Translations under genes and position numbers: made by a program
Assembly (NCBI RefSeq): GCF_041821045.1
Contig: NZ_JBGUAW010000004.1
Span: 1 to 64,000 of the forward strand
Reading direction: 5' to 3'
DNA: 64,000 nucleotides
Source: Thiohalorhabdus sp. Cl-TMA
Lineage (GTDB): Bacteria; Pseudomonadota; Gammaproteobacteria; Thiohalorhabdales; Thiohalorhabdaceae
The notes under the pieces: generated by a model
What the model was told of the DNA's origin: nothing
Database searches by the model: none
What the model saw: the letters and a program-made list of their open reading frames with translations, nothing else
Shown here: piece after piece, positions 24,210-59,274 of the stretch
How positions within the stretch are numbered: the stretch's first letter is position 1
How the letters are laid out: each line of letters opens with the position of its first letter

Positions 24210-25256
24210 TCAGGAGGAGATACCGGCTTCTTCAAAGGTAGCCATTCGATTGTGCAGGGACACGGCCTGTCGTAAAAGCGGTACGGCCGTGGCCGCGCCG
24301 CTGCCCTCGCCCAGCCGCATGTCCAGGGCGAGCAGGGGCTCGGCGCCGAGCGCCTCCAGGACCGCCGCGTGGCCCGGCTCCGCGGAGCAGTGGCCGAACA
24401 GCAGCCAATCGGCCACCCCCGGACTCAGGCGGATTGCGGCCAGCGCCGCGGTGCTGGCGATGAAGCCGTCCACCAGCGCCGGTGTGCCGGCCTGCGCGGC
24501 GGCAATGTAGGCCCCCGCCAGGGCGGCAACCTCGAAGCCGCCGAGCCTGCGCAGGACCTCGGCGGGATCGGCGCCGTCCGGAATCTGCAGCGCCAGCGCC
24601 TCGCGGATCACCCCGGCCTTGCGGTCCACGGCCTCGGTGTCCAGCCCGGTGCCGGGCCCGGTCAGGGATTCCGGATCCCGCCCCGTGAGGGCGCAGGCCA
24701 CAGCCGTTGCGGCGGTGGTGTTGGCGATGCCCATCTCGCCGCCGACGAACAGGTGCGCGCCCTCAGCAACTGCCCGGTCCACGGCGGCATGGCCGGCGGC
24801 CAGCGCGGCCTCCAGCCCCTCCGCCGTCATGGCGGGCTCACGGCGCAGATTGGCGGTTCCCGCGGCGATCCGCGCGGAATGGACCCCGGGCAGCGGCCCC
24901 GGCGCCTCCACGGCACCGAGGTCCACCACCTCCATATGGGCGCCCGCCTCCCGCGCCAGCACGCTGACCGCGGCGCCGCCCCGGCTGAAGTTGCGGATCA
25001 TCTCGGTGGTCACCGCCTGCGGGAAGGCCGAAACCCCCTCCTCGGCCACGCCGTGATCGGCGGCGAATACGGTGATCCAGACCGTATCGAGCACCGGCTG
25101 CGCGACCCCCTGCCAGCCCGCCAGGCGCACGGCCAGCTCCTCCAGGCGGCCCAGGGATCCGGGCGGCTTGGTGAGCTGTGCCTGACGCTCGAGCGCTGCC
25201 CGAGCGGCCTGGTCGTCGATCGCGGCCACGGGCCGGTGGTACCAGGAATCGATCAT
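24210..25256 (-). CDS. cobT: Nicotinate-nucleotide:dimethylbenzimidazole phosphoribosyltransferase (CobT)
   Basis: 348 residues, the usual family length. It makes alpha-ribazole-5-phosphate from DMB and nicotinate mononucleotide. Seen motifs: [48 protein letters not shown] and [15 protein letters not shown] with the catalytic glutamate. It follows cobU after 131 bp and precedes the phosphatase by 34 bp, so a single lower-ligand operon is likely. DMB would come from BluB at 46.8-47.4 kb. Confidence 0.95.
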
Positions 25257-28904: not shown

Positions 28905-30734
28905 TCACACCCCGCCCGCGGGCGCGTAGCTCAGCTCCACCACCCCGTAACGGCCCCGGGTGCGGTAGTCGGCGATCTCCTGGTAGTCCTTGTCGAACAG
29001 GTTCTCCACGCGGGCGTTCACCTTCCAGGAATCGCCCAGGGCCACCGAGCCGTAGAGGTTGATCAGGCCGTAGCCGGGAAGCCGGGTGTCATTGCTCGCA
29101 TCATCGTAGCGATAGCCCTGGGCGATCCACTGGGCGCCGGCGGTGACCGGCCCGAAGGTGCGCCGGGCATCGATCCGGGCCGAACTGCGGCTGCGTCGCG
29201 GCAGGAGGTTGCCGGTCTCCTCGTCGATGGGATCGAGCAGGGTAACATCGGTGCTTACCCGCCAGGGGCCCAGATCGGTGCGCACCGCCACCTCCGCCCC
29301 GGTGATCCGAGCCTCGTCCAGGTTCTGCATCCGGGTGCCGCTGAATACGAGGATATCGTCGATATCGGTGCGGAAGGCGTGCAGCTCCACCCGGCCCCAG
29401 TCCGGCGTGGCGACCAGCCCGATGTCCGCGCTGCGCGATTTCTCGGGCTCCAGGTCGGGGTTGCCCTCGAAATAGCCCACATCGGGATAGTACAGGTCGT
29501 TGAAGGTGGGCTCCCGGAAACCGGTGCCGTAGCTGGCGGTGGCCCGCCAGACGGCATCGATCTGGTAGCCCCAGGCGGCGTTCCAGGTGGTATGCGCGCC
29601 GAAGGCCTCGTTCTCGTCCCGCCGGACACTGGCGGTCAGGTCGTGGCTGCCGAACCGGGCCTGGTGCTGGGCGAACACCCCGTAGTTCCAGCGGGCGTCC
29701 TCGGTGAAATCATTGGTGCTGTCCACCAGGTCCCGCTGATAGTCGGCACCGAGGGTCAACAGCTGGTCCGCGCCGAGCGCCAGGTCGTTCTGCAGGCTGG
29801 CCTGCCGGCGAATGGTGTCGAAGGTGTCCCCCGCCACGCCGTCGGAGAAATTGTCCTGCAGGTCCCGGCTTTCGGCCAGCTTGAGGCGGGCCGTCCAGAT
29901 ATGGGCGGGACGCAGGGTAAAGGTGGTATTCGCCGCCTGCTCCACGAACTCCGTCTCGTTGGGACCGCCGAATCCTGCAGCCCGATCGTACTCGCTCTCG
30001 CCCTCGGCGCGCAGGAAGGAGGCGTCCACGCCGAGCAACCCGCCCGGATCGTACCCGATCCGAAGGCTCCCGCTGGCATTGCGGTAGCCGTCGTCGTCCG
30101 GCTCATTGCCGATTAAGGAATCGAACCCCTCCGTACGGAAATAGCCGCCGTTCAGGGCATAGTGGAAGTCCCCGGCGGCACCGGAAACGCCCGCCCGGGC
30201 CTTGCGGGTCCGGTTGGAGCCCGCCCCCGCCGATACATACGGATGGATGCCCGGCTCCCCCTCCTTGGTGAAGATCTGCACGATGCCGCCGATGGCGTCG
30301 GACCCGTACAGGCTGGAGCGCGGTCCGCGGACCACCTCCACCCGCTCCACCTGAGACAGGGGCAGGTACTCCCAGGCCGGACGCCCGGCGGTGGCGGAGC
30401 CCATTTCCACGCCGTCCACCAGCACCTGCACATGCTCCGGGTTGGTACCGCGCAGGTAGACGTTGGTCTGCTTGCCGTATCCGCCCTGGTTGCTCGTGCC
30501 GACGCCGACCCGGCCACGGAGCAGGTCCTGGAAATCCTGCGCCTGGGACTGCTCGATATCCTCGCGGTCGATGATGGTGACCGGAGCCAGGGCATCGTCC
30601 ACGGTCTGGGCGGTCCGGGTGGCGGTGACGGTGATCTCGTCCAGGGCGGCCACGGTCTGTCCGGCTGCGGGCGTACCCGTCAGGGCCAGCAGGGATCCGG
30701 TACAGGCCGCGAGGCCGGGGGTGAGCTTGCGCAT
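28905..30734 (-). CDS. btuB: TonB-dependent vitamin B12 receptor (BtuB)
   Basis: 609 residues, first gene of the uptake operon. A signal peptide (about 1-25, ending TPAAGQ) is followed by a TonB box (DEITVTATRTAQ), plug domain (QDLLRGRVGVGTSNQGGYGKQTNVYLRGTNPEHVQVLVDGVEM; VERVEVVRGPRSSLYGSDAIGGIVQI) and a 22-strand barrel ending in aromatic VVELSYAP rather than a terminal F. It imports cobalamin or cobinamide through the outer membrane. The riboswitch at 30855-31062 lies in its leader. ATG 30734 has GGGAGG upstream. Confidence 0.93.
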   Translation of the reverse strand: MRKLTPGLAACTGSLLALTGTPAAGQTVAALDEITVTATRTAQTVDDALAPVTIIDREDIEQSQAQDFQDLLRGRVGVGTSNQGGYGKQTNVYLRGTNPEHVQVLVDGVEMGSATAGRPAWEYLPLSQVERVEVVRGPRSSLYGSDAIGGIVQIFTKEGEPGIHPYVSAGAGSNRTRKARAGVSGAAGDFHYALNGGYFRTEGFDSLIGNEPDDDGYRNASGSLRIGYDPGGLLGVDASFLRAEGESEYDRAAGFGGPNETEFVEQAANTTFTLRPAHIWTARLKLAESRDLQDNFSDGVAGDTFDTIRRQASLQNDLALGADQLLTLGADYQRDLVDSTNDFTEDARWNYGVFAQHQARFGSHDLTASVRRDENEAFGAHTTWNAAWGYQIDAVWRATASYGTGFREPTFNDLYYPDVGYFEGNPDLEPEKSRSADIGLVATPDWGRVELHAFRTDIDDILVFSGTRMQNLDEARITGAEVAVRTDLGPWRVSTDVTLLDPIDEETGNLLPRRSRSSARIDARRTFGPVTAGAQWIAQGYRYDDASNDTRLPGYGLINLYGSVALGDSWKVNARVENLFDKDYQEIADYRTRGRYGVVELSYAPAGGV

Positions 30735-30854
30735 GATGCCTCCCAATGTGCGCACCCGCACTTGGCGACGGAGCGGTGGGAGGACGAAAGGGCGGGACGG
30801 AAGGATACGGAAGGTCCACGCCGGCGCCGCCCTCCGCAGTGCCGTAGCCAAAAC

Positions 30855-42548: not shown

Positions 42549-43858
42549 GGCCGGAACAGCTCCGCCACGGCTTCCGGATTGGACGGGAACCAGGCATGCA
42601 GGTAGGTGGCGGTAAGGCGACCCTCGCGGTAGATGGCCTCGGCGGCGGTCCCCCGGTCGCGGGCGCGCACGCAGTGCGCCAGGGGCTCCAGGTCCACCTC
42701 GGCGCGGGTATGGTGGAAGGTGTGGCCGCGCAGCTCGCCCTCGGGCAGGGGGGCGGCCTGCAGGCCGATGCCCTGCAGGCGCTCTTCCAGCCGCGCGCTT
42801 CCGGGGACCAGCCCCGCCATGGGGTGCCGGGGCCCGTCGATGTTGGCGAGACCGTCCAGGAGGTAGAGGAAGCCGCCGCACTCGGCCAGGACCGGCTTGT
42901 CGGTGCGGTGGTGCTCGTGCAGGTCGGCCTTGAGGTCGGTGTTGGCGGCCAGGGTCTCCAGGTGGAGCTCCGGATAGCCGCCGGGAAGCCAGACGGCATC
43001 CGCCTCGGGCAGGCCCTCCCCGGCGAGGGGGGAGAAGAAGCGCAGCTCCGCGCCCAGGGCCTCCAGCAGCCGCAGGTTGCCGGGGTACAGGAAGGCGAAG
43101 GCCGCATCGCGGGCAACGGCGATCCGGACACCGGTCAGCCGCGGCTCGGGGGCCGGCAGGGCTTGCGGCTCGAAGGCCACCGGCTCCGGGAGCCCGGTCA
43201 CCCCGGCCTCGGCCACGGTGGCGGCGGCCTTCGCCAGGCGCTGCTCCAGATCGTCGATCTCCGCGGCCTGCACCAGGCCCAGATGCCGGTCGGGCAGGCC
43301 CACCTCGGCGTCCCGGGGAATCGCGCCGAAGTAGCGCATTCCCTCCGGCAGGGCGGCGCCCAGCATGCGGCCGTGGCCCGGGCTGCCCACGCGGTTGGCG
43401 ATGACGCCGGCGAAGGGCAGGTCCGCCCGCCAGGTGGCCAGCCCGTTGGCCACGGCGCCGAAGGTCTGGGCCATGCCGCTGCCGTCGAGCAGCGCTAGCA
43501 CCGGCAGTCCGAAGCGCACCGCCAGATCGGCGCCCGACGGATCGCCGTCGAAGAGCCCCATGGAGCCCTCCACCAGGATCAGGTCGGCCGTCTCCGCGGC
43601 GGCGCGCAGCATGGCCCGGCAGTCCTCCTCGCCCACCATCCACAGGTGGAGCGGGTCCACCGGATGGTCGCAGGCCCGCTCCAGGATCATGGGATCGAGG
43701 AAGTCCGGTCCCATCTTGAAGACGCGCACCGTGCGGCCCTGGTCGCGGTGGTAACGCGCCAGGGCGGCGGTGACGGTGGTCTTGCCCTGGCCGGAGGCCG
43801 GGGCGGCGATGAATACCGCCGGACAGGTGGCGGTTCCTTGATGCATATCCGATTTCAT
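42545..43858 (-). CDS. cobB: (Hydrogeno)cobyrinic acid a,c-diamide synthase (CobB/CbiA)
   Basis: 437 residues from ATG 43858 (ATG 43846 is an alternative). ATP-binding loop [24 protein letters not shown] and the C-terminal glutaminase cysteine in [14 protein letters not shown] with [10 protein letters not shown] are present. First gene of the long minus-strand operon cobB-cobA-cbiD-yadG/yadH-like-cobG-cobH-cobI-cobJ. Confidence 0.93.
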
Positions 43859-44221
43859 CCTTGTCGGGTGAGGAGGCAAGGAACGTACAAGTACTAAGAG
43901 GATCAAAAGCAGAGCTTCACCGACACCGACCCAAAACACCCAAGAAAACGCCAAACCGCCAAAAACGGCGTTCTATCTGTGGGCATCTGTGGATCGTCTC
44001 GGGGCTTTACCTCTCGTCTGGTAAGTACAACTTTGTCACCGGAGCCCGTGGCGCACCCTCGGGGTCCAAGACAAGACCTCGGGACAACCTAGCTTCGGAG
44101 CCCGGCTTTGCCGGGCGACCTGGATAAAGCCCCTCGCCGACCCAAGGAATCTCCCGTTAAAGCGGGCTCCTACAGGAGTCGGGGCCCATCCAGCAGAGTA
44201 GTATTAGTAAAGAGCACCGAA
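43859..44221. other. Intergenic region with paired REP elements
   Basis: About 360 bp without a convincing gene. An 88-residue open frame at 43861-44127 has no protein-like composition. It holds a hairpin AACGCC...GGCGTT near 43934-43977 and a REP pair listed separately, and leads to the decayed antitoxin gene. The cobB promoter should lie at its left end. Confidence 0.6.
44097..44178. repeat. Inverted pair of REP elements
   Basis: GGAGCCCGGCTTTGCCGGGC (from 44097) is a self-complementary REP; about 30 bp on, the minus strand of 44149-44178 reads TGTAGGAGCCCGCTTTAACG, the classical gammaproteobacterial REP pattern. Opposite orientation makes it a BIME-like unit. Confidence 0.72.
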
Positions 44222-44467
44222 GTGAATAAGACCCTGGAAGCCTCGATCACCAGCAAGGGGCGGGTCACCCTGCCCAAAGATTTGTGGTAGCAACTGCACC
44301 TTGCCGCCGGCAACCGGCTCATCTTCCTCATGAAGCAGGACAGCTCCGTTCACCCGATCCCCAAGCACGCCTCCCTAAAAGCACTTAAAGGGACCGTTCC
44401 CAAGCCGGAACAACCGGTGAGCATCAAGGAAATGGAGCGAGCCCTCGGGCGAGGTGGCTCAGAATGA
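44222..44467 (+). pseudogene. Decayed AbrB-type vapB antitoxin gene with internal TAG
   Basis: From GTG 44222 the frame reads LEASITSKGRVTLPKDLW, then TAG (44288-44290), then continues QLHLAAGNRLIFLMKQD...PVSIKEMERALGRGGSE to TGA at 44465-44467. It aligns along its whole length with intact VapB at 31285-31521, including the tail. The ATGA junction to the lost toxin is still present at 44464-44467, but the vapC coding sequence is not recognisable after a few codons. Confidence 0.85.
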
Positions 44468-44504
44468 TTGCCAGCCCGACCTCCCATGGAGGGAGGGGAA
44501 CCTC

Positions 44505-44870
44505 TTACAATTGGTACGGTATGCGAATACCGGGGCCGTCCACCGGAAAATCCTTACTATCCCGCGTTACCAGCAAAGCCTGCCGGCATTCCGCCGTGGC
44601 CAAAATCACAGCATCCGGTAGCTTGAGCCGGTTACCCCGTCGCAACATCACCGCCGATTCCGCAACCTTCGCTTCCAGCGGGATGACATCAAAGGTTTCC
44701 AGGAATCCCCGGACTATATTTTCCTCTTCGACGGTCCGGCAGCCCACCATGACTTCCATCCAGGTAATTTGGCTGATTAGGCGCTGGCTGTAGTGCTGTA
44801 GCTCTTCAGCGGCTTGGTGAACACCGTTTAAGTAATCCACAAGGATGTTGGTATCGAATACCGCGTTCAT
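44505..44870 (-). CDS. PIN-domain ribonuclease toxin (VapC family), second system
   Basis: 121 residues. PIN acidic residues: D6 (FDTNILVDYL), E39 (WMEVMVG), D86 (LPDAVILATA) and D104 (TRDSKDF). The ATG at 44870 overlaps the stop of the ribbon-helix-helix antitoxin as ATGA, favouring it over the ATG at 44879. It belongs to a different PIN subgroup from the toxin at 31518, and occupies the place where the decayed vapB would have had its partner. Confidence 0.88.
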   Translation of the reverse strand: MNAVFDTNILVDYLNGVHQAAEELQHYSQRLISQITWMEVMVGCRTVEEENIVRGFLETFDVIPLEAKVAESAVMLRRGNRLKLPDAVILATAECRQALLVTRDSKDFPVDGPGIRIPYQL

Positions 44871-45088
44871 TCGGTCCATTCATCCCGGAGGGCCCGCTGA
44901 TGGGCCACCCCTTCTTGCCGGTCCGTCCACAGCCCGAAGGCAGGGGACTCACGGTCCGGTGCCGGCCGAGCGGCAAGATAGGCCCGGATTGCACGCCGTA
45001 TGGCTTCGGCTTGGGAGACCTCATCCCGCTTGGCGGCGGCTTTAAGGGCTCGAAGCTCTTCTTCTGGAAGATCCACGATCGTACGCAT
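44867..45088 (-). CDS. Ribbon-helix-helix (CopG-like) antitoxin
   Basis: 73 residues. MRTIVDLPEEELRALKAAAKRDEVSQAEAIRRAIRAYL is a standard ribbon-helix-helix dimer domain; the acidic/aromatic tail (FGLWTDRQEGVAHQRALRDEWTE) would bind the toxin. AGGGGGG precedes the ATG. First gene of the second VapBC-type operon. Confidence 0.87.
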   Translation of the reverse strand: MRTIVDLPEEELRALKAAAKRDEVSQAEAIRRAIRAYLAARPAPDRESPAFGLWTDRQEGVAHQRALRDEWTE

Positions 45089-45170
45089 TATGCCCCCCTA
45101 GGTGATATCTGATGACGGCATCATGCATCATTTGGGCGGAAGCTACAAGCGCACCCTTGGTGACAGCCTC

Positions 45171-45776
45171 CTACATCTCCACTCCCTGCTGCGCCTTCAC
45201 TCCCGCTTCGAAGGCATGCTTTTCCTTGCGCATGTCGGTGACCGTGTCCGCCACGTCCATGAGGTCCTGAGGCGCGCCGCGGCCGGTGATGACCACGTGC
45301 TGCATGGGCGGCCGGCTGGCCAAGTCTTCCAGCACCGTGGGCAGGTCCAGGAATTCCTTCTTGAGCGCTATGTTGAGCTCGTCGAGCAGCACCAGGTTTA
45401 CCGACTCGTCCCGCAGCAGCGCCCGCGCCCGCTCCCAGGCCGCCTGCGCCATCTCCGTGTCCCGTTCACGGTCCTGGGTCTCCCAGGTGTAGCCCTCGCC
45501 CATGACGTGGTAGGTCACCTCGTCGAAGCGGCGAAAGAAGGCCTCCTCGCCGGTGGCGAACTTGCCCTTGATGAACTGGACCACGCCCACGCGCTGGCCG
45601 TGCCCCAGGGCACGGGCCGCCATGCCGAAGCCGGCGCTGCTCTTGCCCTTGCCGGTGCCGGTATTGACGATGACCACGCCCCGCTCCTCGCTGGACTCCC
45701 GGATGCGGGCGTCCATGATCTCCTTCTTCTTCTGCATGCGCTCGCGATAGCGGACGTCGGATTGCTGTTCGCTCAT
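45171..45776 (-). CDS. cobO: Cob(I)yrinic acid a,c-diamide adenosyltransferase (CobO/BtuR)
   Basis: 201 residues. It attaches the 5'-deoxyadenosyl ligand to Co(I). The P-loop is NTGTGKGKSSAGFG; VVQFIKGKFATGEE, LLDELNIALKK and VVITGRGAPQDLMDVADTVTDM are conserved. It lies between the second toxin-antitoxin pair and the low-GC HEPN-like gene, cut off from the other cob operons. Confidence 0.94.
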   Translation of the reverse strand: MSEQQSDVRYRERMQKKKEIMDARIRESSEERGVVIVNTGTGKGKSSAGFGMAARALGHGQRVGVVQFIKGKFATGEEAFFRRFDEVTYHVMGEGYTWETQDRERDTEMAQAAWERARALLRDESVNLVLLDELNIALKKEFLDLPTVLEDLASRPPMQHVVITGRGAPQDLMDVADTVTDMRKEKHAFEAGVKAQQGVEM

Positions 45777-45805
45777 TTATTGGCCTTTACGATCAAAGAA
45801 GAAAT

Positions 45806-46711
45806 TCAATTTCCAGGCACGCCATCTCCAAAATCCCACGCCCCTAAGCCACCACGGTCTCCTAGGGGCACCTGCTTATACGGCGTTTCCAAACCGAGAA
45901 GTGCGCAAATCAACTTCAGGTTAAAAGCCGAAAATTCAAGCCGGAAATTTTCTTCAGGGAGGGCATACCCAAGCGGAGCATCCGCGAATCGAGCTTCATG
46001 TACCAAATCGTTGCGCAATTTTGAAAGCCGAGACTCTGTCTTTCCCTTATCACTTTCATAAGTCTGGGCCCATCCAGGAACAGAAACGCCAAAATGCTCT
46101 GCAAGTTTTTCGGGCCTTTTTGAGTGAGGAACATTTTCTAATCGGGAAAATTTCCATATGGCATCAAGAACCTTGTATTGGGCATCAAAATAATCCCACA
46201 AGAACTGGCAGGCCTGCCCTACCAAGAACCAATGAATAATACCGAATAACTGACAACTTTCATCAATTCCTTGGGAATCATATATATAGGATATCTGTTC
46301 AAGGCCATCTTCATAATCTTTTCCTAAAGGAATCAGGCCAGTCAGTTTTCCAGGTTTGTACGGGACTTGCCAAAGGTATATATGACTCTCTGGCAGCAAG
46401 TACAACCCTTGCAAAAACCCGTAGGCAAGGATGAGGAATTTTTCTTTTTCAGGATCGGCCGACTCAGTTTGAATGTCATGAGTAAGCGGAAGATCAAAAG
46501 GGAATCTGGGCTTTAGTCCATCCTTCTTCTTAAATCGTTTCCGTTCCTCGGGCTCCATCGGAGCAGGCTCCAAGTGCGGTAGGACCCACCCACGGCTCAC
46601 TCGAAAATTTGCATAAAACTCCTCAATAGCGCCTTCGTATTGAGGGAGCGGGCGAACTTCGACATCTCTAACCGTTACTACCCTTTCATCAATCAAAAAT
46701 CCAAACTTCAC
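45806..46711 (-). CDS. Low-GC HEPN-like protein of unknown function
   Basis: About 301 residues from GTG 46711, preceded by AAGGGGGT; a TTG at 46732 is also open. Its base composition is far below its neighbours (46141-46200 is 23 G/C of 60 by hand count), suggesting recent acquisition. The C-terminal half is helical and carries RNDLVHEARF (about residues 242-251), matching the R-x4-6-H motif of HEPN ribonucleases and ApeA-type defence proteins. The N-terminal half has no family I recognise. It starts 31 bp after the ancestral bluB stop, so it may depend on the B12-controlled transcript. Confidence 0.75.
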   Translation of the reverse strand: MKFGFLIDERVVTVRDVEVRPLPQYEGAIEEFYANFRVSRGWVLPHLEPAPMEPEERKRFKKKDGLKPRFPFDLPLTHDIQTESADPEKEKFLILAYGFLQGLYLLPESHIYLWQVPYKPGKLTGLIPLGKDYEDGLEQISYIYDSQGIDESCQLFGIIHWFLVGQACQFLWDYFDAQYKVLDAIWKFSRLENVPHSKRPEKLAEHFGVSVPGWAQTYESDKGKTESRLSKLRNDLVHEARFADAPLGYALPEENFRLEFSAFNLKLICALLGLETPYKQVPLGDRGGLGAWDFGDGVPGN

Positions 46712-46741
46712 GACCACCCCCTTAGGAGGCAAGATAATTCG

Positions 46742-46819
46742 TCAAGGCCAACCGGGTTTGCCCCACCCATCGGCGTAGACCAGGTCTTCCAGCGACTCGC
46801 GCTCGGCCCACCCCTCCTG
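46742..46819 (-). other. Stranded 3' end of bluB after an in-frame amber codon
   Basis: Reading on past the TAG at 46820-46822 in the same frame gives 25 residues with clear BluB C-terminal character (ESLEDLVYADGWG) before TGA at 46742-46744. The conservation shows that the stop codon is a recent change. Confidence 0.85.
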
Positions 46820-47392
46820 CTAGAGCATGGGCTCGTCGTAGAAGTCCTGCACATGCCCAAGGCACAGCACCGCCACCGGATGACCGCCCTCGGGCATGGC
46901 CAGGAGGCGGGCCAGCGCCTCCGGGTCGAAGAAGGAGACCCAGCCCATGCCGAGCCCCTCCGCGCGGGCGGCCAGCCACAGGTTCTGGATGGCGCAGGAC
47001 ACGGAGGCGAGATCCATCTCCGGAAGCGTACGCCGGCCGAAGACGAATTGCTCCCGGCCGTCGGCGAGGGCCGCCACCAGCAGCTCGCCCGCCTCCCGCA
47101 CGCCCTCCACCTTGAGGCGCAGGAACTCGGCCTTGCGGTCATCCATGGCCTCGGCGGTGCGCTTGCGCTCCGCCTCCACCAAACCGGCGATCCGTTCCCG
47201 TACCGCCGGATCGGTGACGCGGATGGAGCGCCACGGCTGCATGAAGCCCACGCTCGGGGCCCGGTGGGCGGCCTCCAGCAGCCGGCGCAGCACGGCCGGA
47301 TCCACCGGGTCGGGCCGGAAGTGGCGCATGTCGCGTCGCTGCTCGATGGCGCGGTAGACGGCGGCGATCTCCGCCGAGGAAAAGCCGCTCAT
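46820..47392 (-). CDS. bluB: 5,6-dimethylbenzimidazole synthase (BluB), truncated by an amber codon
   Basis: 190 residues as encoded; 216 are expected. BluB converts FMNH2 with O2 into DMB, the lower ligand used by CobT. The nitroreductase-like fold is intact: RRDMRHFRPDPVDP, AAHRAPSVGFMQPWRSIRV, FGRRTLPEMDLASVSCAIQNLWLAARAEGLGMGWVSFF and VLCLGH. Codon 191 is TAG where homologous proteins continue (...DEPML then GW..); 25 further codons remain in frame. Loss may reduce or abolish activity, or readthrough may occur. The ATG overlaps the DUF2149 gene as ATGA. Confidence 0.9.
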   Translation of the reverse strand: MSGFSSAEIAAVYRAIEQRRDMRHFRPDPVDPAVLRRLLEAAHRAPSVGFMQPWRSIRVTDPAVRERIAGLVEAERKRTAEAMDDRKAEFLRLKVEGVREAGELLVAALADGREQFVFGRRTLPEMDLASVSCAIQNLWLAARAEGLGMGWVSFFDPEALARLLAMPEGGHPVAVLCLGHVQDFYDEPML

Positions 47393-52619: not shown

Positions 52620-52745
52620 GGAGCCTCCGCTGCACCGGTTTCAGGTATGGGCGATTCCGGGCAGCGCGGGGAAAATAAACAGGCGGGACGGCCGGAGGGA
52701 CCGGACCCGCACGTCGCACCCCGCGACGCCGTTGGGGGTCGGCAC

Positions 52746-52936
52746 TCCAGGCCGGTCTCCGGGCTGACGAGCTGGCGGCGGAGCCGCCGGTCGGTCGCCT
52801 TCCCGCGTCCCGGGGACGCAGTGGCATCGGACCGTCCTTCACTCGCTTACCGTTGCGGGGGCAGCGCCGGTTCGGCCCTCGGGCCGTCCGGACTTCCCGT
52901 TTCACCCCGGCCACGAAGGCGCGGGGCACCTGGAGC
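52746..52936 (-). ncRNA. Cobalamin riboswitch in the cobN-like leader
   Basis: Minus-strand sequence contains ACGGGAAGTCCGGACGG, GGCGCTGCCCCCGCAACGGT (about 52848-52867), GGGAAGGCG and the B12 box CAGCCCGGAGACCGGCCTGG. Core blocks are nearly identical to the btuB riboswitch at 30855-31062, suggesting duplication. The start codon follows after about 125 bp. Confidence 0.92.
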
Positions 52937-52939
52937 GAA

Positions 52940-52974
52940 AAATACAAAATGTTCCCGGCGTCTTACGCCGGGAA
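52940..52974 (-). terminator. Intrinsic terminator after purEK
   Basis: TTCCCGGCGT (52952-52961), three bases and ACGCCGGGAA (52965-52974) make a perfect 10-bp stem. On the minus strand it is followed by CATTTTGTATTTTT. It separates purK from the cobN-like riboswitch. Confidence 0.82.
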
Positions 52975-57294: not shown

Positions 57295-59274
57295 ATGCAC
57301 CCCGTATTCCCGAAGCAGCGGGCTGCTGCCCCCCTTTTCCTGGCCATCACAGCCCTCGTCCCCGCAGCGGCATCGGCGCAGGGATCGGAATCCGCCAGCC
57401 TGGATGCCATATCGGTAGAGGCCGCCCGCCCGAGTCTCATGTTCGAGCTGGAGGAGCACGGCCACGCCGTGGAGGTGATCAGCCGGGCGGACCTGGACCG
57501 GGCCAACGTGGACGATCTCGGCCAGGCCCTCCAGATGTTCGCTCCCGGCCTGTACGTGGCACCCCGGAGCGGGCGGGCGGACTACGTCAATGTTTCCCTC
57601 CAGGGCTCCCGGGCCAAGGACATCCTGTGGCTGGTGGACGGGGTCCGGGTCAACAACCGCCTGTACGGCTCCACCACACCCCTGGACACCCTGAGCACCC
57701 ACATGGTGAAGCGCATCGAGGTGATCAAGGGCGCCGAGAGCCTCTTCTACGGCACCCAGGCGGTGGCCGGGGTAGTGAACGTGATCACCCGCGACCCGCG
57801 ATCCCGAGCTTCCGGCCAGGTAAGCGCTTCCGCCGGCACCCTGAAGGAGGGCGCCCTGAGCGCCTGGGGCGCCGGCGGCAGCGAGAACCACCAGGTGCTG
57901 GCCTTTGCCCGCCGGGACGGGAGCAAGGGATTCCAGCCCTTCCCGGACGGCGCCTACGAGCCCAATGCCCGCAAGGACGACCGCGGATACGACCGCCTTA
58001 CCGCAGGCCTGAAATCCCGGCACGACCTGGGAGCCGCCGGCAATGTCCAGCTCTTCCTCCAGCGCAACGAGGCCGACCTGGACTACGCGCGGCCCTACAA
58101 TCAGCACCACGCCAGCAACGACCGGACGGAGCATCTGGCCTACGTCAACTGGGACCGGCAGTGGGGTCGGCGCTTCGCCCTGGAGGCCCAGGCCTACTGG
58201 CACGAGTGGTGGACCGATTTCACGCGGGTGGGCCTGGACGGCAGCGGCAACAAGCAGACCCTCTACAAGGACGAGGAGTGGGGCTTCGAGGAGTACGGCG
58301 CCCGCGCAACAGCGCGCTTCTTCCAGGCGGACGGCTCCACCTGGGTCCTCGGCGCCGATTACCACGAGTACTACGGCGAGGACTACGTCCTGCGCATCGA
58401 CCAGGAGCGCGAGGCCGTGGCGGCGGTCTACGGCCAATACCGGCCCCACCTCTCCTTCGCGCCCCGCACCGACCTGGCCCTCGGGGTGCGCTATCACGAC
58501 GCCGAGAAGGGCGGCGAGAAAACGGTGTGGAACCTGAGCGGCCGGCGCCCGCTGCCGGGCGGCACCCATTTCCGGGCCTCCACGGGAACGGCCTTTCGTC
58601 TGCCCACGGCCTACGAACAGTTCGTGGACGACCCCTGCTGCGCGGCCGGCAACCCGGACCTGGACGCCGAGGAGAGCTTCAGCGTGAACGGCGGATTCGG
58701 CGGCAGCCACCGGCTGGGCGGCGGGAATTCCCTAACCTGGGAGGCATCCGGCTTCTACCGCCGCATCAAGGACCTGGTCCAGGTGGAGGGGGATACCTTC
58801 GTCAACGCCGATAACCGGGTGATCAGCAAGGGGGCCGAGGGCAAGCTGGGACTGCGGCTGGGGCGCCGCTGGCGGGGCCAGGTGGCGGCCACCTACACCG
58901 AGGCCACCGAGCGCGGCAGCTCGGAGCAGATCGACGAGATCCCCCGCAGCTTCCTCAAGGCTCTGCTGGGCTACGACACCCCCGGCGGGGTGACCGGCGG
59001 CCAACTCACGGCCCTCTACGTGGGCAAGGTGGCCAACACCGTGGCCGGCAGCCGCGAAACCTACGGCCGCTACTGGGTCTTCGACCTCTCCGCCTACCGC
59101 CACCTGGACGCCGCCAGGCGCCACCGGCTGGGTCTGCGGCTGGAGAACCTCCTCGATCGCCGGTACGCCTCCCAGCTGGGGAGCGGGGTCCGAGCCGCCA
59201 GCGGCGATGACTACGCGTACAGGTATCTCGGTACGCCGCGCAATCTCCAGGCCACCTACACCTACAGCTTCTAG
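57295..59274 (+). CDS. TonB-dependent receptor under B12 control (BtuB/FepA-like)
   Basis: 659 residues. Signal peptide (AITALVPAAASAQG), TonB-box-like LDAISVEAA, plug (DDLGQALQMFAPGLYV; ILWLVDGVRVNNRLYG; VKRIEVIKGAESLFYGTQAVAGVVNVIT) and a barrel ending LQATYTYSF with the canonical terminal phenylalanine. An extracellular-loop Cys pair, C448-C449 (DDPCCAAGNPDL), is unusual. The riboswitch suggests a corrinoid or cobalt-compound substrate. It differs clearly from BtuB at 28905-30734. Confidence 0.9.
   Translation: MHPVFPKQRAAAPLFLAITALVPAAASAQGSESASLDAISVEAARPSLMFELEEHGHAVEVISRADLDRANVDDLGQALQMFAPGLYVAPRSGRADYVNVSLQGSRAKDILWLVDGVRVNNRLYGSTTPLDTLSTHMVKRIEVIKGAESLFYGTQAVAGVVNVITRDPRSRASGQVSASAGTLKEGALSAWGAGGSENHQVLAFARRDGSKGFQPFPDGAYEPNARKDDRGYDRLTAGLKSRHDLGAAGNVQLFLQRNEADLDYARPYNQHHASNDRTEHLAYVNWDRQWGRRFALEAQAYWHEWWTDFTRVGLDGSGNKQTLYKDEEWGFEEYGARATARFFQADGSTWVLGADYHEYYGEDYVLRIDQEREAVAAVYGQYRPHLSFAPRTDLALGVRYHDAEKGGEKTVWNLSGRRPLPGGTHFRASTGTAFRLPTAYEQFVDDPCCAAGNPDLDAEESFSVNGGFGGSHRLGGGNSLTWEASGFYRRIKDLVQVEGDTFVNADNRVISKGAEGKLGLRLGRRWRGQVAATYTEATERGSSEQIDEIPRSFLKALLGYDTPGGVTGGQLTALYVGKVANTVAGSRETYGRYWVFDLSAYRHLDAARRHRLGLRLENLLDRRYASQLGSGVRAASGDDYAYRYLGTPRNLQATYTYSF

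Follow-up and report, generated by a model that had tools for sequence, protein, structure and literature searches.

An in-frame amber codon ahead of the conserved C-terminal tail of BluB in Thiohalorhabdus sp. Cl-TMA

The gene discussed here belongs with BluB, 5,6-dimethylbenzimidazole (DMB) synthase, which converts reduced FMN to DMB, the lower ligand of vitamin B12. BluB of Sinorhizobium meliloti (PDB 2isj) is the sole BluB with a solved structure that was found by sequence. The active site of BluB lies between the two subunits of a dimer (PMC3573010). Benzimidazoles present in media partially rescue an S. meliloti bluB mutant, and such compounds have also been found in environmental samples (PMC4230183), so that salvage could bridge a bluB defect. 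The second point of reference is the amber codon. In E. coli, misreading of amber codons yields reporter means that vary with temperature and medium between about 0.01 and 0.8% of the wild-type level, and mass spectrometry identified mainly Gln or Tyr at the misread position, with an ambiguous codon label in the legend (PMC11126739).

The window (the whole stretch of 64,000 nucleotides analysed here) carries a bluB gene that starts at 47392 on the minus strand. Its codon 191 is TAG, and 25 further codons follow in the same frame before a TGA, an arrangement that the original prediction had described and that is present in the sequence:

46820..47392, minus strand: bluB as it stands, 190 aa + TAG
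46820..46822, minus strand: in-frame TAG at bluB codon 191, where both congeneric species have CAG (Gln)
46745..46819, minus strand: 25 in-frame codons after the TAG, the BluB C-terminal tail, with the invariant W195 and W210 and the nearly invariant R198
46742..46744, minus strand: TGA closing the bluB tail, on the boundary of an insertion of ~960 bp

The 190-residue product scores 253.1 bits against TIGR02476, the BluB equivalog model, whose curated cut-off is 150 bits. Adding the tail raises the score to 271.3 bits and extends the match to model position 204 of 205, which indicates that the tail is BluB sequence and not a chance open frame. Thirteen of the first 15 residues past the TAG are identical to those of the congener G001, in further agreement with the proposal that these codons are a genuine BluB C-terminus. 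The body is therefore BluB by score, but the conserved residues of the tail (W195, R198 and W210) lie behind the TAG, which makes the gene a truncated allele rather than an intact bluB. No second bluB was found in the genome, where the next nitroreductase-like match reaches 33.9 bits.

Comparison with relatives sets this gene apart. The idea that most BluB proteins simply end at this point finds no example among the 81 relatives readable beyond it, and all those readable past it share the pattern E-x-E-x-W-A-x-R-x-x-L-x-x-L-V-F-E-N-x-W. In an alignment of 80 relatives (79 fetched loci plus G001), W195 and W210 occur in every sequence and R198 in 96%; even the S. meliloti enzyme, at 46% identity, has a recognisable tail. 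A class-wide profile search recovered 50 BluB genes in 369 genomes, with an internal stop solely in the present genome (1/50), so the truncation is unique among these relatives, and a family-wide short form of BluB is rejected. In the second congener, G002, bluB is split by contig ends; both pieces were read, and they join at the tail region. In a genome of another family (G030, C207:7836-8086, L006) there is a 91%-identical piece of bluB split across two frames; it may be either a frameshifted copy or an error in the sequence.

The surroundings of bluB also differ from those in the congeners. In both of these, cobO comes immediately after bluB and cobB after cobO, whereas here cobO is flanked by two insertions with a GC content of 46% and 57%, against 69% for the window:

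45781..46744, unstranded: insertion, ~960 bp, 46% GC, not in either congener, separating bluB from cobO; boundaries approximate
45806..46732, minus strand: ORF of at most 308 aa that occupies the first insertion and has no match in Pfam, NCBIfam or PADLOC
45171..45776, minus strand: cobO (corrinoid adenosyltransferase), intact
43836..45169, unstranded: second insertion, ~1.3 kb, 57% GC, between cobO and cobB
44505-44879: PIN-domain VapC-like gene within the second insertion
52733..52948, minus strand: cobalamin riboswitch, located upstream of cobN, with which the gene string containing bluB starts

The position of this riboswitch argues for the B12-repressed operon in which bluB had been placed. 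The status of the TGA is less simple. It does close the frame at 46742-46744, but it may not be the ancestral stop that it was taken for, because it lies on the boundary of the insertion and the bluB products of the congeners end at 217 (G002) and 229 (G001) residues. The first insertion leaves every conserved tail residue untouched, so that the insertion alone need not have harmed BluB. Relatives of its 308-aa ORF are 23-26% identical hypothetical proteins on five plasmids; the ORF contains RNDLVH, which by eye is like the R-x4-H motif of HEPN ribonucleases. In the second insertion, a small ORF ahead of the VapC-like gene resembles, by eye, an antitoxin for it, and a 570-bp stretch is 74.7% identical to sequence elsewhere on a congener contig (G001 C14).

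The codons around the site read CTC-TAG-CAG-GAG-GGG-TGG in this genome, CTG-CAG-CAG-GAG-GGC-TGG in G001 and CTC-CAG-CAA-CAG-GGC-TGG in G002. Since the close relatives both have a sense codon, CAG (Gln), at codon 191, the change is a single C-to-T transition. The G-to-T change from GAG suggested in the original prediction fits the wider family, where Glu is the commonest residue at this position (82%), but not the genus. The rest of the gene is in good order. With G002 as outgroup, the branch leading to the present bluB carries 7 amino-acid changes (stop counted) against 9 for G001, and 24 synonymous changes against 25; dN is 0.075, compared with a contig median of 0.092; and in the 97 columns common to at least 90% of relatives, the protein deviates only where that of G001 does. 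An older decay of bluB is rejected, there being no excess of amino-acid change and no further lesion. The stop is therefore either recent or a sequence error.

We favour the first of these, with a probability of roughly 60%: a recent nonsense allele, in which a C-to-T change made CAG 191 a TAG, DMB synthesis is reduced or lost, and salvage bridges the defect. A transition in the sequenced lineage would have created the stop, and ordinary release at the TAG would then yield a 190-residue BluB without the conserved C-terminal tail. Judged from conservation, such a protein would be inactive or weak, and DMB synthesis would be impaired. Lower-ligand bases or whole cobamides would have to come from outside, imported via BtuB-like receptors and attached by CobT and CobS, to which trace natural amber misreading would perhaps add a little. 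The genetic event itself is ordinary, probably a recent nonsense allele or a base error, and calls for no new category or reading of the code.

Is the TAG present in the organism at all? It could be a base error in a draft assembly of 45 contigs, or a minority variant that entered the consensus, with the organism itself having CAG. Such an error would account for a bluB in which a single base is the only lesion and whose body retains every highly conserved residue that G001 retains. The site lies outside any homopolymer, however, and no clustering of errors was seen: across the 350-kb contig, comparable internal stops turned up in very few orthologous genes. We regard an error as unlikely, though it is the first alternative to be weighed.

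Accepting the TAG as real, the 190-residue protein might be active enough, the tail being dispensable in this species. The Pfam PF00881 nitroreductase domain is complete without the tail, ending at residue 180; the bluB body gives no sign of relaxed selection; and several nitroreductases, 4g8s for example, align over the body only. The structural comparison bears on what the tail contributes. A model of full-length BluB, with the TAG read as Gln, is confident over its whole length, the tail included: mean pLDDT is 87.4 overall, 85 for residues 191-200 and 92 for residues 201-210. It matches 2isj with a Z of 22.2 and an rmsd of 2.2 over 209 residues at 45% identity, and because model residues 1 to 213 align with chain residues 12 to 227 of 2isj, the tail is ordered in the crystal. 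Its removal would be expected to harm folding or the active site. Our literature search found no mutational data on the BluB C-terminus, and the present allele offers a direct test of the role of the conserved tail. With the two tryptophans invariant, the tail recognisable as far away as S. meliloti and no examined BluB relative lacking it, a dispensable tail seems rather improbable.

Could the TAG instead be read through? In ARAGORN scans, none of 49 tRNA genes had the anticodon CUA, and the best match to PylS reached 19 bits against a cut-off of 178. The 350-kb contig was aligned with the orthologous contig of G001. In 121 gene pairs, third-position changes support the reading frame, and TAG is the stop of 46 of these 121 genes in the present genome. 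Internal stops as first listed were mostly antisense shadow frames, upstream extensions and shifted C-termini, and the third-position filter leaves some shadows; on this one contig, bluB is the sole clear case in which a TAG interrupts a well-aligned frame and a long conserved tail follows. Another gene (G000 C4:108859) ends at a TAG at position 211 of 219, its G001 orthologue being about 8 residues longer, which is ordinary end variation. Pyrrolysine insertion and a general reassignment of amber are rejected: there is no CUA tRNA and no PylS, and TAG is a common normal stop on the 350-kb contig. The same observations tell against readthrough as a special mechanism, one of the two outcomes that the original prediction had left open.

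There is still the chance that natural misreading, or an unrecognised suppressor, yields sufficient functional full-length BluB. The product of BluB is required in small amounts only, the tail carries no further lesions, and low-level misreading of amber codons is known from E. coli. Beyond the missing tRNA and the frequent use of TAG as a terminator, TAG is absent at this position in all relatives, so there is no sign that it is kept, and we consider sufficient readthrough doubtful. Most improbable of all is a leaky nonsense allele in which low readthrough supplies just enough of a flavin-consuming full-length enzyme; if true, it would mean that an FMN-destroying reaction is held down where DMB is needed in trace amounts only.

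On the reading we prefer, a recent nonsense allele, the cell would rely on lower ligands or cobamides from outside. The window encodes the activating enzyme:

24210..25256, minus strand: cobT, lower-ligand activating enzyme, intact

CobS is likewise present and intact, and two BtuB-like TonB receptors (28905-30851 and 57295-59274) each lie behind a further cobalamin riboswitch of their own. Against the TonB-B12 model (cut-off 599.7), the first receptor scores 554 bits and the second 147, and the latter may on that account carry another corrinoid or metal complex. Dependence on salvaged lower ligands, proposed at the outset as the alternative to readthrough, is with these genes possible in principle.

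The demand for cobamides counts against the favoured reading. MetH and MetE are both present, MetH being encoded as two separate genes (L195 and L196; G000 C7:186978-190533); the split was considered as a second lesion in B12 use and rejected, as it is common to G001. Two B12-dependent NrdJ genes were found, and in this search, which covered class I and NrdJ, no class I ribonucleotide reductase was found, its model matching only at these two NrdJ loci, below cut-off. Cobamide is thus probably needed for DNA synthesis under air, and with only B12-dependent ribonucleotide reductases found, loss of its supply should be costly. If the TAG is real, the strain is a candidate natural lower-ligand auxotroph that keeps the corrin pathway and perhaps obtains DMB from neighbours, and its need for DMB would bear on growth, as the ribonucleotide reductases found, class III aside, are all B12-dependent.

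How does the locus compare with known systems? It shares with amber recoding an in-frame TAG within a conserved reading frame. Unlike in recoding, there is here neither a CUA tRNA nor PylS, TAG is widely a normal stop, and on the 350-kb contig no other conserved gene was found that a TAG interrupts in this way. With BluB proper, as defined by TIGR02476 and the S. meliloti enzyme of 2isj, it shares a body whose score of 253 bits exceeds the cut-off of 150 and, in the model with the tail, a fold matching at a Z of 22.2, but the present protein ends with residue 190 and lacks the conserved C-terminal tail. As in natural nonsense alleles, or young pseudogenes, of bacterial genomes, one transition has made a stop, there is no second lesion, and the gene is intact in both congeners. 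Nothing notable separates it from them, with one exception: the product should be of consequence where no ribonucleotide reductases other than B12-dependent ones were found.
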